From assembly GCF_900143065.1 (NCBI RefSeq), contig NZ_FRCX01000001.1, positions 787,206 to 851,205 of the forward strand: a stretch of DNA of 64,000 nt, written 5' to 3'. The position numbers and the translations under genes were made by a program. Below are positions 32,481-36,557 of this stretch, piece after piece. Every line of letters begins with the position of its first letter. Position 1 is the first letter of the stretch. Source of the stretch: Duganella sacchari. Its GTDB lineage: Bacteria; Pseudomonadota; Gammaproteobacteria; Burkholderiales; Burkholderiaceae_D. The notes beneath the pieces are model-generated. The model was not told where the DNA came from. It saw only the letters and a program-made list of their open reading frames with translations, and did no database searches.

Positions 32481-32873
32481 TCAATCCGGCTTGTTGCGCA
32501 TCCAGTCGGCGGTCTGGAAGAAGGAGTTCATGAGGCGCACGCGCAGTTCGGTATCGATGCCGACATCTTCCATTGCCCACGCCATGCAGCGCAGCCACTG
32601 GTCGCGTTCCTGCGTGCCGATGGCGAACGGCATATGGCGCATGCGCAAACGCGGATGGCCATGCGCCTGCTGGTACAGGTCCGGGCCGCCCATCCAGCCG
32701 CTCAGGAACATGAACAAACGCTGGTTGGCGTTTTCCAGCGAGGGGCCGTGCACGGAACGCAGCAGCTGGAACTCAGGTTCAAGTTCCATCAGATCATAAA
32801 AGCGATCGACCATCGCGCGGATGGTCGATTCGCCGCCAATTACTTCGTAAAGGGTGCGGGATTCTTCAGTCAT
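32481..32873 (-). CDS. Group II truncated hemoglobin (TrHbO type)
   Basis: The 130-residue heme protein has the group II pattern: Tyr26 at B10, proximal His80 in R-M-R-H-M-P-F, and Trp93 at G8 in D-Q-W-L-R-C-M. Group II globins bind oxygen tightly and are linked to oxygen chemistry or protection. It starts 15 bases after the stop of the CqsA-like synthase gene on the same strand, so the two are probably one transcript, with rmuC following. Confidence 0.93.
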   Translation of the reverse strand: MTEESRTLYEVIGGESTIRAMVDRFYDLMELEPEFQLLRSVHGPSLENANQRLFMFLSGWMGGPDLYQQAHGHPRLRMRHMPFAIGTQERDQWLRCMAWAMEDVGIDTELRVRLMNSFFQTADWMRNKPD

Positions 32874-32888
32874 ACCCGCAATGATAGC

Positions 32889-34121
32889 TTATACCAGGGC
32901 CAGCTTGCGCAGGCGGCGCGTGGACGACCAGCTCTCCAGATCGACCTGGTGGCGGATCTCGTCACAGGCGTGGACAATGCGCGCCAGCTGCACGCGATTG
33001 AGGCCGGAATTGAGCGTCAGCCGCACCAGTGACCGGTTCTTGGGCGTCGCCGGTGCGCAGAACATGGCGCCATACACGCCGCGCTGCTCGAGCAGCTTGC
33101 GCAGCGCCAGTGTTCTCGGCTCCGGCCCTGGCTCGAGCGCGATGATCTGCTCGCAGCCGTCACTGACGTTGTAGCCCAGCGCGCCCAGTTCTTCCCGCAA
33201 TGTGCGCGCGTGCGCGTGCAGCGCGGCGCGGCGGTCGTCGGCAGCGGCGATGAAATCGATGGCCGCGTCAAACCACGCCAGCTCATGTCCCAGCAGGCAG
33301 GAGCTAAATATGGCCGGGCGCGACTCGGACAGGAAGTAGCCCTTGAAATGACTGGAACAGGTAATGAAGCCGGCCCGCCCGGCAAATGCCTTGGCCAGCG
33401 ACGCCGTGCGGAAATGTACCCGCTCGCTCAATCCCAGCGCCGCCACCAGTCCGGCGCCGCGCGGCCCGTGCGTACCCAGCGAGTGCGACTCGTCCACCAG
33501 CAGCATGCAGCCGCCGCGCTCCGCGATCTCCACCAGTTCCACCAGCGGCGCCACGCTGCCGTTGGTGCTGTACAGCGCATCGACCACAATCAGGCCGCGG
33601 CCGTGACGCTGCAGCTGTTTGCGCAAATGGTCCATATCGTTGTGCAGGAAGGAGACCGGCGTCGCGCCCGACGACTGCACGCCCTCCCACAGCGAAGCAT
33701 GCGCCTGCATGTCCAGGTACACGGGAATGCCCGGCCCCGTGAGCGTCTGCACCAGCCCGACGTTGGCGGCCCAGCCGGATTGCGCCAGTATCCCATCCTC
33801 CGCCCCCATGAACTGCGCCAGCTTGAGTTCCAGCCGGTGCTGGGCACTGTCCTCCTGCAGATAGACGGCAGACATCAGCAATTCACCATGGCGATGCTGC
33901 AAGGCCGACATCTGCGCGCCGACCAGTGCCGGCTCGCCGGCCAGGCACAGGTAGTCGTTACCAGCCAGGAAAACCGCGTTGGCCGGCGTGGGCTGCCAGG
34001 CATGCGGATGTTCGCCGCCCAGCAGTTGCTCGATACGGGTGATGTAGTGCAGGTCCATGCGCCGGGTGACAAAGTCCGGCAGATGCGAAGGCAGCAGGGT
34101 CTGGGCAACGGCGTAGTTCAT
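32889..34121 (-). CDS. jqsA: CqsA/LqsA-type alpha-hydroxyketone autoinducer synthase
   Basis: PLP enzyme of 410 residues in the alpha-oxoamine synthase group. The PLP lysine is Lys244 in A-S-L-A-K-A-F-A-G-R-A-G, a motif specific to CqsA/LqsA rather than to BioF or Kbl; the cofactor Asp210 is in L-L-V-D-E-S-H-S-L-G. The family joins a fatty acyl-CoA to an amino acid-derived substrate to make long-chain alpha-hydroxyketone signals such as CAI-1 and LAI-1. AGGAG lies seven bases before the ATG. It is divergent from a sensor kinase and response regulator, matching the lqs locus of Legionella and the jqs locus of Janthinobacterium/Duganella. The exact signal is not predictable from sequence. Confidence 0.93.
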   Translation of the reverse strand: MNYAVAQTLLPSHLPDFVTRRMDLHYITRIEQLLGGEHPHAWQPTPANAVFLAGNDYLCLAGEPALVGAQMSALQHRHGELLMSAVYLQEDSAQHRLELKLAQFMGAEDGILAQSGWAANVGLVQTLTGPGIPVYLDMQAHASLWEGVQSSGATPVSFLHNDMDHLRKQLQRHGRGLIVVDALYSTNGSVAPLVELVEIAERGGCMLLVDESHSLGTHGPRGAGLVAALGLSERVHFRTASLAKAFAGRAGFITCSSHFKGYFLSESRPAIFSSCLLGHELAWFDAAIDFIAAADDRRAALHAHARTLREELGALGYNVSDGCEQIIALEPGPEPRTLALRKLLEQRGVYGAMFCAPATPKNRSLVRLTLNSGLNRVQLARIVHACDEIRHQVDLESWSSTRRLRKLALV

Positions 34122-34206
34122 GTCGCGTCTCCTTGGGTTTTGAACAATGATGGTTATTTTTCTAAGCACCGCAGTGCCACCATGCGGCGAAAAAAACTCA
34201 GCGAGA

Positions 34207-34220
34207 TTGATACGGATCAA
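34207..34220. promoter_or_regulatory. Perfect FNR/ANR-type box in the divergent jqsA/jqsS promoter
   Basis: TTGAT-ACGG-ATCAA matches the FNR/ANR consensus at all ten specified bases. It lies 46 bases before the kinase start and 85 bases before the synthase start. Candidate -10 elements on the plus strand are TTTAAT (34228-34233) and TGTAAT (34248-34253); with the first, the box would cover the -35, which suggests repression. On the minus strand TAGAAA (34163-34158) would put the box near -62, an activating class I position. Which gene it controls, and in which sense, cannot be settled from sequence. Confidence 0.72.
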
Positions 34221-34266
34221 TTGGCGTTTTAATGTCGCAAAACGCGTTGTAATTTAAGGCCATCAT

Positions 34267-35547
34267 GTGAACTTGATGAAAATCAAGATTCCCATGACAT
34301 CCACCCTGCAAGAACGCTGGAAGCGCTGGCAGCACGGACTGGTACAGTCCCTGCTCCTATATCACGGCCGTGAAGACCACGCGACCGTGCGCGTCCTGCT
34401 GCTCGCCTGCATCGGCACGGTCGCCATGCCGCTGTACTACGTGATCTGGCATCACTTCTTCCCGCAGGATTTCGAGTCGCTGCCGCTGCGCCTACTGGGC
34501 ATAATGCTGTGCGCGGTGGGATTGTTTGCGCGCCAGTTCAGCCGGCAAGTGCTCAACCTCTACCTGCTGGTCACACTGAGCTACATTTTTCCGTTCTTCT
34601 TCACGCTGATGTTTTTGATGAACCACGGTTCCGGCGTATGGAGCGAGTCGCTGCTGATCGGCCTGGTGGTGCTGTTTCACTTCGATACCGGACTGGCGCT
34701 GCGCGCGTACGCCATCGGCACCCTGCTGGCCTGCACCGCCGCCATATCGCAGGGTGCGGGCGACGCGCTGCTCAGCCGGCAAGTCCTGCAGCAGCTGCCA
34801 ATCCACTGGTTCACCATCGCCGTGCTGTCGGCGGCCAAGATCAGCCGCCATGTGCTGGCGCAGGAAAAACTGACCGGCATGGGCGCTGGCCTGGCTACCG
34901 TGGCGCACGAATTGCGCACCCCGCTCACCAGCGTCGACGCCAATGTGCGCGGCGTGCTGCGGCTCATGGCGGACCAGCGGAGCGAGCGCATTCCCATCGT
35001 CGACGCGCTCGCGCGCATCCAGTTTGAAGTCCGCCATATGAATCACATGATCGACCTGTTCCTGCTGAGTGCGACGGCGGTGCGGCAGAATCTGCGCCCG
35101 GTGGAAATGGTGTCGATGGAGTCGGTGGTGGAATCGGTGCTGAAACGCTATCCCTTCTCCAGCCAGAAACAGCAGAAGATGGTGCGGCTGGAGGTGCGCC
35201 GCAACTTCCACTTCTCCGGCCAGACCGAGCTGGCCGTGGTCGTGCTGCTCAACCTGATGCGCAACGCCCTGCGCGCCGTGCAGCGCGCCGGCAAGGGCCG
35301 CGTACGTATCGTCATCGACGGCAGCCAGCGCATGCCGCGCCTGCTCTTCATCGACACTGGTTGCGGCATCGCCATGCAGCACATGCCGATGATCTTCCGC
35401 CGCTTTTACTCCCACCCGCCGCACAACGGCGCCGGCATCGGTCTGGCGCTGTGCCAGGAAATCATGGAAGCCTGGGGTGCGAGCATCCGCTGCGTATCGC
35501 GCGAGAGCGCCTACGCCGTCTTCATCCTGGAATTCCCAGTGAGGTAA
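34267..35547 (+). CDS. jqsS: Quorum-sensing histidine kinase, CqsS/LqsS type
   Basis: The 426-residue membrane kinase has about six membrane segments in residues 40-190 with little periplasmic sequence, as in CqsS and LqsS. The cytoplasmic kinase core then has the H-box V-A-H-E-L-R-T-P-L-T (His214), N-box N-L-M-R-N-A-L, G1 D-T-G-C-G-I and G2 G-A-G-I-G-L-A-L. There is no C-terminal receiver, so it resembles LqsS rather than Vibrio CqsS. The start is GTG with AAGG upstream; an ATG at 34276 is the alternative. It should sense the product of the divergent synthase and act on the regulator encoded two bases downstream. Confidence 0.92.
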   Translation: MNLMKIKIPMTSTLQERWKRWQHGLVQSLLLYHGREDHATVRVLLLACIGTVAMPLYYVIWHHFFPQDFESLPLRLLGIMLCAVGLFARQFSRQVLNLYLLVTLSYIFPFFFTLMFLMNHGSGVWSESLLIGLVVLFHFDTGLALRAYAIGTLLACTAAISQGAGDALLSRQVLQQLPIHWFTIAVLSAAKISRHVLAQEKLTGMGAGLATVAHELRTPLTSVDANVRGVLRLMADQRSERIPIVDALARIQFEVRHMNHMIDLFLLSATAVRQNLRPVEMVSMESVVESVLKRYPFSSQKQQKMVRLEVRRNFHFSGQTELAVVVLLNLMRNALRAVQRAGKGRVRIVIDGSQRMPRLLFIDTGCGIAMQHMPMIFRRFYSHPPHNGAGIGLALCQEIMEAWGASIRCVSRESAYAVFILEFPVR

Positions 35548-35549
35548 TC

Positions 35550-36557
35550 ATGCACCTTCCCGTCTACGCGCACCCCACCATGACCGTACTGGTTGACGAC
35601 AGCGACTCCTTTTTGAGCAGCCTGTCATTCCAGCTCGACCCCATGCTGGCCAACAAAACCTTCCATGACACGACCGAGGCCCTGCACTGGCTGCGCAACA
35701 GCGCGCCGGATGCCAGCGTGCCGCTGCACGTCAACTTCGACATGCAAAACCTGCCGGCCGATCAATGCAATGTGGCGCTGGACCTGGAGCGCATCTACCG
35801 GATCAGCGAGCAGCGCCAGCGCTTTGCCGTGCCGTCGGTGCTGGTGGTGGACTACTCGATGCCGCAGATGAATGGCCTGGAATTCTGCGCCGCCGTTGCG
35901 CATCTGCCCTGCAAGAAGATCCTGTTCACCGGAGCGGCCGATGAAAAGATCGCCGTGGCCGCCTTCAACCGCGGCCTCATCGACCGCTACATCAAGAAGA
36001 GCGAAGACCACGCGCTGGACATCCTGGAGCTGGAAATCGCCGCGCTGCAGGACCGCTACTTCGACAGCCAGTCGGACACGCTGCGCGAGATGGTCGCGCT
36101 GCACGACTTCCGCTTCCTGTGCGACCCGGCGCTGACCGCCGTGGTGCGGGAGATCAAGCGCACCATGGGCTTTGTCGAGCACTACATCTTCCCTACCCCC
36201 ACCGGCATCCTGTTCCTCGACCAGCAGGGCAAGGCCACGCTGATGATGATAGAAACCGAACAGGGCATGTGCGCGCAATACGAAATCGCCCGCGACAGCG
36301 AGGCGCCGCGCTCGCTCCTCAACGCGCTGCTGGAACGCCGCGTGCTCGCCTTCTTCAGCGATCCATTCGGCGACGGCATGTACACCAACAGCATGAGCGA
36401 GAACTGGCACCGCTACACGGCGGCGCCACAGGTCTGCGTGGGACAGGAGACCTACTACTGGGCGCTGTTCGACCTGCCCGGCCACTATTTCGGACAGCGC
36501 CCCTACACCTACGCGCAGTTCCTGCAGGAGCTGCAGCCGCAAATCATTGCGGCTTAA
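35550..36557 (+). CDS. jqsR: Quorum-sensing response regulator, LqsR type
   Basis: The 335-residue regulator has an unusual receiver: a 60-residue insertion separates the first acidic pocket (V-D-D-S-D-S near residue 15) from the phospho-acceptor Asp101 in V-L-V-V-D-Y-S-M-P-Q-M-N-G. The conserved Thr is in I-L-F-T-G-A, and the Lys in R-Y-I-K-K-S. The C-terminal half has no recognisable DNA-binding domain and ends in an aromatic-rich segment. This layout matches LqsR, whose output domain is still poorly understood. It is co-transcribed with the kinase, and its stop overlaps the convergent permease gene at TTAA. Confidence 0.9.
   Translation: MHLPVYAHPTMTVLVDDSDSFLSSLSFQLDPMLANKTFHDTTEALHWLRNSAPDASVPLHVNFDMQNLPADQCNVALDLERIYRISEQRQRFAVPSVLVVDYSMPQMNGLEFCAAVAHLPCKKILFTGAADEKIAVAAFNRGLIDRYIKKSEDHALDILELEIAALQDRYFDSQSDTLREMVALHDFRFLCDPALTAVVREIKRTMGFVEHYIFPTPTGILFLDQQGKATLMMIETEQGMCAQYEIARDSEAPRSLLNALLERRVLAFFSDPFGDGMYTNSMSENWHRYTAAPQVCVGQETYYWALFDLPGHYFGQRPYTYAQFLQELQPQIIAA

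Follow-up and report, generated by a model that had tools for sequence, protein, structure and literature searches.

Two FNR-type palindromes in the jqsA/jqsS control region of Duganella sacchari are conserved among its relatives and coincide with the JAI-1 quorum-sensing motif

The region between the divergent genes for an alpha-hydroxyketone-type autoinducer synthase (jqsA) and its sensor kinase (jqsS) in Duganella sacchari contains two perfect palindromes of the form TTGAT-N4-ATCAA, which, judged from their letters, placement and conservation, are almost certainly a real, conserved operator pair of the CRP/FNR type. By its letters the element is the 'JAI-1 motif' already in print, and is therefore not new in itself; what this analysis adds is the observation that the JAI-1 motif takes the form of an FNR-family operator, and that it persists in genomes from which the signal gene is gone. 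Control of the jqs genes by oxygen through FNR is a proposition that we regard as evenly poised.

The window analysed here is a stretch of 64,000 nucleotides (64 kb) of the D. sacchari genome, and its relevant features are collected in Table 1. The first-pass annotation had pointed to a single perfect box, TTGATACGGATCAA, between a synthase and a kinase gene: its position and perfect match are confirmed, as is the setting, with a minus-strand jqsA recognized by NF005526 and a plus-strand kinase gene with HisKA and HATPase domains, but the second perfect box had been overlooked. Boxes 1 and 2 are the sole perfect TTGAT-N4-ATCAA sites in the window, both of them in the jqsA/jqsS control region, with box 2 ending 7 bp 5' of the jqsS start codon. 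Dinucleotide shuffles of the window yielded a mean of 0.07 perfect sites and a maximum of 1, versus the 2 observed, while sites with at most one mismatch number 5 against approximately 1 expected. The complete genome (6,675,676 bases) contains 9 perfect sites versus 1 for the reversed pattern, and the chance that 2 of 9 randomly placed sites would both land in the 155-bp jqsA/jqsS gap is about 2e-8. A search for structured RNA in the segment 33900-34500 returned no Rfam match at E <= 0.5. A conserved stretch, which reads GGCGATGATG in most relatives, is found at window positions 34256-34272, immediately 5' of box 2; several relatives have a mini open frame here, which ends with the TGA contained in the TTGAT of box 2.

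Table 1. Features of the jqs locus in the D. sacchari window (positions are those of the window)
Feature	Positions	Strand	Basis
Globin gene, bacterial	32481..32873	-	PF01152, 142 bits
jqsA, alpha-hydroxyketone-type autoinducer synthase	32889..34121	-	NF005526, 547 bits (cut-off 428); Pfam PF00155
Predicted -10-like hexamer of jqsA, CATGGT	34179..34184	-	22 bp behind box 1; weak, inferred
Box 1, TTGATACGGATCAA	34207..34220	.	Perfect FNR-type palindrome TTGAT-N4-ATCAA
Box 2, TTGATGAAAATCAA	34273..34286	.	Perfect FNR-type palindrome, 66 bp from box 1
jqsS, sensor histidine kinase	34294..35547	+	HisKA and HATPase_c; start from alignment of relatives
jqsR, LqsR-family response regulator	35550..36557	+	Pfam Response_reg only; full-length match to 6sy9

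The gene order is that of Jqs, Lqs and Cqs loci: a synthase over the NF005526 cut-off, an adjacent kinase with HisKA and HATPase domains, and an LqsR-family regulator. The longest open frame of jqsS begins with a GTG at 34267 and runs through box 2 (window 34267-34293), but relatives carry stops in 34267-34293, and for this reason ATG 34294 is the likely start. The globin gene follows jqsA on the minus strand after 15 bp and is a common neighbor of jqsA in relatives as well, which suggests an operon of signal synthase and globin, possibly co-transcribed. In JqsR, Pfam recognizes only the receiver domain and no DNA-binding domain, although the solved response regulator 6sy9 is matched over the full length; the output domain of LqsR is described as similar to a diguanylate cyclase domain in the available part of a study on the JqsR relative PhcX (PMC10653808). 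Since JqsR has no recognized DNA-binding domain, the palindrome is probably bound by another protein.

We have studied the conservation of the boxes at orthologous loci by searching for jqsA in the genus of the window, that is Duganella as drawn by GTDB, with Rugamonas (45 of 74 genomes at E <= 1e-40), and in a sample of the family (113 of 392 genomes at E <= 1e-60). The comparison comprised 124 loci, 45 from the Duganella genus and 79 family loci from other genera, among which Janthinobacterium belongs to g6, and Massilia is found in both g12 and g19. With one mismatch tolerated, 104 of the 124 loci have a site in the gap between jqsA and jqsS, against approximately 2.4 in shuffles. These sites occur in 42/45, 37/38, 17/17 and 8/8 loci respectively of the Duganella genus, g6, g12 and g19 (shuffle expectations 0.99, 0.44, 0.49 and 0.19), and they are absent at the jqs loci of g29 (0/13), g38 (0/2) and g22 (0/1), where the corresponding expectations are 0.23, 0.06 and 0.01. 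Absence of the box from orthologues, which the first-pass annotation had named as grounds for abandoning its idea, is thus not what we find in Duganella, in Janthinobacterium and in two Massilia-containing genera; it is what we find in three genera (0/16 loci), and also at 3 of the 45 loci from the Duganella genus and at 1 of the 38 from the Janthinobacterium genus. The three box-less Duganella-genus loci (L043, L044, L045, in genomes G037, G021, G054) have a JqsA only 66-68% identical and a kinase about 50% identical, and these divergent genes were possibly acquired from another lineage.

Where the box is present, it is the half-sites that are kept: there are 18 different spacers among the 42 Duganella-genus loci, and the information content calculated from 22 de-duplicated loci of this genus averages 1.85 bits in the half-site columns, versus 0.96 in the spacer and 0.53-0.78 in the flanks. 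Most loci also conserve positions 5 and 10, which the published TTGA/TCAA does not include. When up to two mismatches are allowed, 37 of 42 loci of the Duganella genus and 23 of 37 g6 loci have a second site at a distance of exactly 66 bp from box 1 (34 and 14 loci respectively with at most one mismatch), while any other offset occurs in at most 6 loci of these two groups; for one locus (L037) the site counted as 'box 1' is in fact the second one, the first having two mismatches. The second half-site deviates from the consensus by one step, reading CTCAA, in 17 of the 37 g6 loci, and the box spacings of g12 and g19 are other than 66 bp.

The remaining seven perfect sites of the genome precede or adjoin ccoN (a cbb3-type COX1 subunit), ubiU (NF047963, 564 bits against a cut-off of 440, with a hemerythrin gene facing it), a PAS-MCP chemoreceptor, a thiolase (acetyl-CoA acyltransferase), a phasin, uspA (a universal stress protein) and one unnamed gene without a Pfam match (L048). 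In Herbaspirillum seropedicae, a member of the Oxalobacteraceae, the direct Fnr targets established by ChIP-seq and RNA-seq include, in the part of the report available, fixNOP, an aer-type chemoreceptor, an acetyl-CoA acetyltransferase, a phasin and two uspA genes, and the operators of Fnr1 and Fnr3 have the same canonical palindrome (PMC5934665). With several target types thus shared between the two organisms, the word mostly marks FNR-type targets in the D. sacchari genome. The targets given in that part of the report belong to respiration, storage, taxis and stress, not to quorum sensing, and binding here is predicted. In the stretch L305:7007-9283 (G000:C35:560006-562282), one perfect box precedes uspA, a NarL/UvrY-type response-regulator gene and the gene for an FNR-like protein, L055, all on one strand; a cascade from FNR to this paralogue is possible.

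Four FNR-like proteins were inspected as candidate readers: L056, which is FNR, L059 and L062, which have cysteine clusters, and L055, which has none. L056 scores 269 bits against NF008365 (cut-off 228), its gene is beside the cco cluster (ccoNOP), and in alignment the cluster cysteines of the solved FNR 5cvr have their counterparts in its cysteines 22, 25, 31 and 124. A match to FNR (E <= 1e-50) is present in 63 of 63 jqsA-bearing genomes of g6, g12 and g19, of which 62 are boxed, and also in 10 of the 13 box-less g29 genomes. The interpretation of the element as an FNR/ANR box gains from a conserved operator of FNR type and from a standard four-cysteine FNR in the genome, while the oxygen switch that had been claimed along with it loses ground, because the cysteine-less paralogue L055 follows the distribution of the box better than FNR does.

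It is possible, although we lean against it, that the boxes are read by L055, and that the jqs genes answer a cue other than oxygen. In proteins of this family the E..SR residues of the recognition helix are the reader of TTGAT. L055 (C35:561431-562276) has the recognition helix LTLETVSR, with E..SR as in FNR, and only two cysteines, neither in an N-terminal cluster: without iron-sulphur ligands it would not sense oxygen directly, and the jqs genes would thus respond to something else. Its own gene stands behind the perfect box, uspA and the response-regulator gene mentioned above, which also favors a link with the boxes. All 15 of the other box-bearing genomes that were sampled (5 each from g1, g6 and g12; none from g19) encode an orthologue of L055 with 86-93% identity, while it is missing from the 13 g29 genomes, all box-less, in which no match to L055 exceeds 44% identity; this distribution is the strongest point against a plain FNR reading, and makes L055 its main rival. 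However, the absence from g29 may be a single event, since g29 is one lineage, and L055 also occurs in 5 of 6 further jqs genomes without a box (G037, G021, G054, G094 and G158, not G110). Furthermore, L055 is below the NCBI Fnr cut-off (157 bits versus 228).

A different interpretation is suggested by the literature. In the available text of Haack et al. (2016, PMC5080296), the JAI-1 motif, TTGA-N6/7-TCAA, is placed upstream of jqsA, vioA and chiA, and of almost all JAI-1-regulated genes, as a quorum-sensing motif without a named binder. In the same text a vioA reporter, active in ordinary R2A cultures with no low oxygen stated, is cut by 75-90% by a 49-bp deletion containing the motif, a loss that fits an activator site, and is halved by the loss of jqsA; for jqsA itself, that text does not describe expression depending on JAI-1. 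The boxes at jqsA fit this motif in definition and position, with the same letters in the same place in Janthinobacterium and Duganella, and the vioA copy is approximately at its published position (PMC5080296); they differ from the motif as published in that positions 5 and 10 are also conserved, which makes it the FNR word, and in that the element persists without jqsA. The terms FNR, oxygen and anaerob have 0 occurrences in the text of PMC5080296, as do FNR, oxygen, promoter and intergenic in the earlier jqsA paper (PMC3566124), and a search by title and abstract of the open-licence literature found no published FNR control of jqs genes. The box is not the novel feature it was first taken for, its letters having been published upstream of jqsA, although not as an FNR box.

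To examine vioA in related genomes, violacein clusters were located via PF12902 open frames of approximately 1000 aa; NCBIfam confirmed L219 and L230 as VioA and VioB, and the other vio loci rest on the same layout and on the VioA N-terminus. In g6 (Janthinobacterium) the vioA motif is the perfect FNR word TTGATATTTATCAA in 12 of 14 vio loci, with one mismatch in another and no box in the last. Where genomes of the Duganella genus combine vio with jqsA (six genomes), the vioA box has one mismatch in three cases and two mismatches in one, and is missing in two, so that no perfect box is present. All six vio genomes of this genus that have no jqsA carry FNR-type boxes before vioA: two perfect boxes in four cases, one perfect and one with one mismatch in the fifth, and two with one mismatch in the sixth. 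In four of these (L229, L230, L233, L234) the two perfect vioA boxes are 53 bp apart, versus the single copy of Janthinobacterium. In the same six genomes jqsR is kept and a perfect box remains between the globin gene and the jqsS/jqsR remnant (6/6 each), there is no jqsA near jqsR (6/6), and no jqsS was found beside jqsR in 4/6. Overall, 3 of 26 vio loci (G262, G051 and G047) have no box within approximately 460 bp of vioA.

We have also considered which gene the box travels with. There are 29 jqsA-less genomes in the Duganella genus, of which 28 have the globin gene (E <= 1e-25); this adjoins jqsS/jqsR in 27 of 28, and a box is found within 260 bp in 27/27 (25 perfect, 2 with one mismatch), while G030, whose globin gene is without jqs genes, has no box. 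Among 30 jqsA-less genomes picked from other genera, one has jqsR beside the globin gene and two perfect boxes; in the other 29 the globin gene has no adjoining jqs genes, and there is no box. The totals are 28/28 boxed globin loci beside jqsS/jqsR without jqsA versus 0/30 without jqs genes, a contrast that is mainly one of genera (the Duganella genus supplies 27 of the 28 boxed loci but only 1 of the 30 unboxed), which involves fewer independent events than the counts and is overstated by the Fisher value, contrasts within a genus being limited to G030 and to G141 versus G117 (g4). Exceptions are g29, g38, g22 and the three Duganella-genus loci, which have jqs genes and no box. In the samples tested, then, the box tracks jqsS/jqsR rather than jqsA or the globin gene, and on this point the first-pass interpretation is not borne out as worded. 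As a separate observation, 27 of the 29 jqsA-less genomes of the genus (L247-L274) keep jqsR or jqsS beside the globin gene, with a kinase match in 20 and jqsR alone in 7; such genomes may be listening to the signals of others, or their regulator may have been rewired.

This association with jqsS/jqsR (28/28 versus 0/30), together with the placement of the motif upstream of almost all JAI-1-regulated genes, is what one would expect if the motif were bound by a factor of the Jqs pathway, its likeness to an FNR site being convergent and oxygen irrelevant. We consider this quite unlikely: the same word is found at ccoN, ubiU and uspA in this genome, positions beyond TTGA/TCAA are conserved in most loci, JqsR shows no recognized DNA-binding domain, and a motif serving quorum sensing only is less easily reconciled with vioA boxes in 6/6 vio genomes without jqsA, although dependence on JqsR at vioA is still compatible with these six genomes because they keep jqsR. 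Highly implausible is the idea that the box simply belongs to the globin gene as its promoter element, jqsA having come between them by chance: the short distance between jqsA and globin in the window would agree with it, as would the nearest box starting 39-101 bp before the globin gene in Duganella-genus loci without jqsA, but we reject it as 0/30 globin loci without upstream jqs genes have a box, the same-genus G030 included, and five boxed loci (L194, L197, L206, L207, L209) have no globin gene within the flank examined.

Returning to FNR as the presumed reader in preference to the paralogue, FNR dimers would form as oxygen falls, and would then bind both boxes and activate, in the direction that we predict, the two divergent units, jqsA with the globin gene behind it and jqsS-jqsR. 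Box 1 would activate jqsA from about -41.5, whereas box 2, just 5' of the jqsS start, would modulate jqsS by either activation or repression. As an example of such an arrangement, the fnr1 gene of H. seropedicae has a class II Fnr site centred at -42, according to the available part of PMC5934665. In g6 the best offset for a -10-like hexamer of jqsA is 21 bp behind box 1 (z = 3.5), and at vioA, too, this box-to-hexamer spacing ranks first (z = 2.0): both fit a site near -41.5. The signal at 22 bp in the Duganella genus is weak (z = 1.4) and outside the four best offsets, and there is no -10-like signal for jqsA at class II distance from box 1 in g12 and g19. A promoter for jqsS at a set distance from box 1 was also considered and was rejected, as the best offsets differ between genera.

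If the JAI-1 motif is an FNR-family operator, the same control would extend to violacein via vioA. The enzymes of violacein synthesis include monooxygenases, and for this reason full anoxia would make little sense for vioA. It is likely that low oxygen helps set the timing of signalling in these bacteria. In a broader scheme, which we put forward as speculative and on the whole unlikely, a CRP/FNR protein would be the missing DNA-binding arm of alpha-hydroxyketone quorum sensing, JqsR would act through it, the JAI-1 motif would be its FNR-family operator, and oxygen and cell density would meet on one operator for the jqs genes and for violacein.

These results can be compared with what is known of other systems. 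FNR or Anr has been linked to the acyl-homoserine-lactone systems of Vibrio fischeri and Pseudomonas aeruginosa. There, as here, a regulator of the CRP/FNR family is tied to a quorum-sensing circuit, but the signals are acyl-homoserine lactones, while the jqs system works with a signal of the alpha-hydroxyketone class, sensed by a two-component kinase. In the Cqs, Lqs and Jqs systems, too, a synthase gene adjoins those for a sensor kinase and an LqsR-family regulator, and control of the FNR type was not found described for them in the available part of PMC3566124, whereas the locus studied here has candidate boxes of that type.

If our interpretation is correct, what was published as a quorum-sensing motif is in reality an operator for a regulator of the FNR family, whether oxygen-linked or not, which would explain why the vioA promoter is hurt more by the loss of the motif than by the loss of the signal gene, and the jqs pathway would gain a candidate DNA-binding protein. 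The violacein and antifungal traits of Janthinobacterium and Duganella would then be tied to the supply of oxygen in colonies, in biofilms and on hosts.
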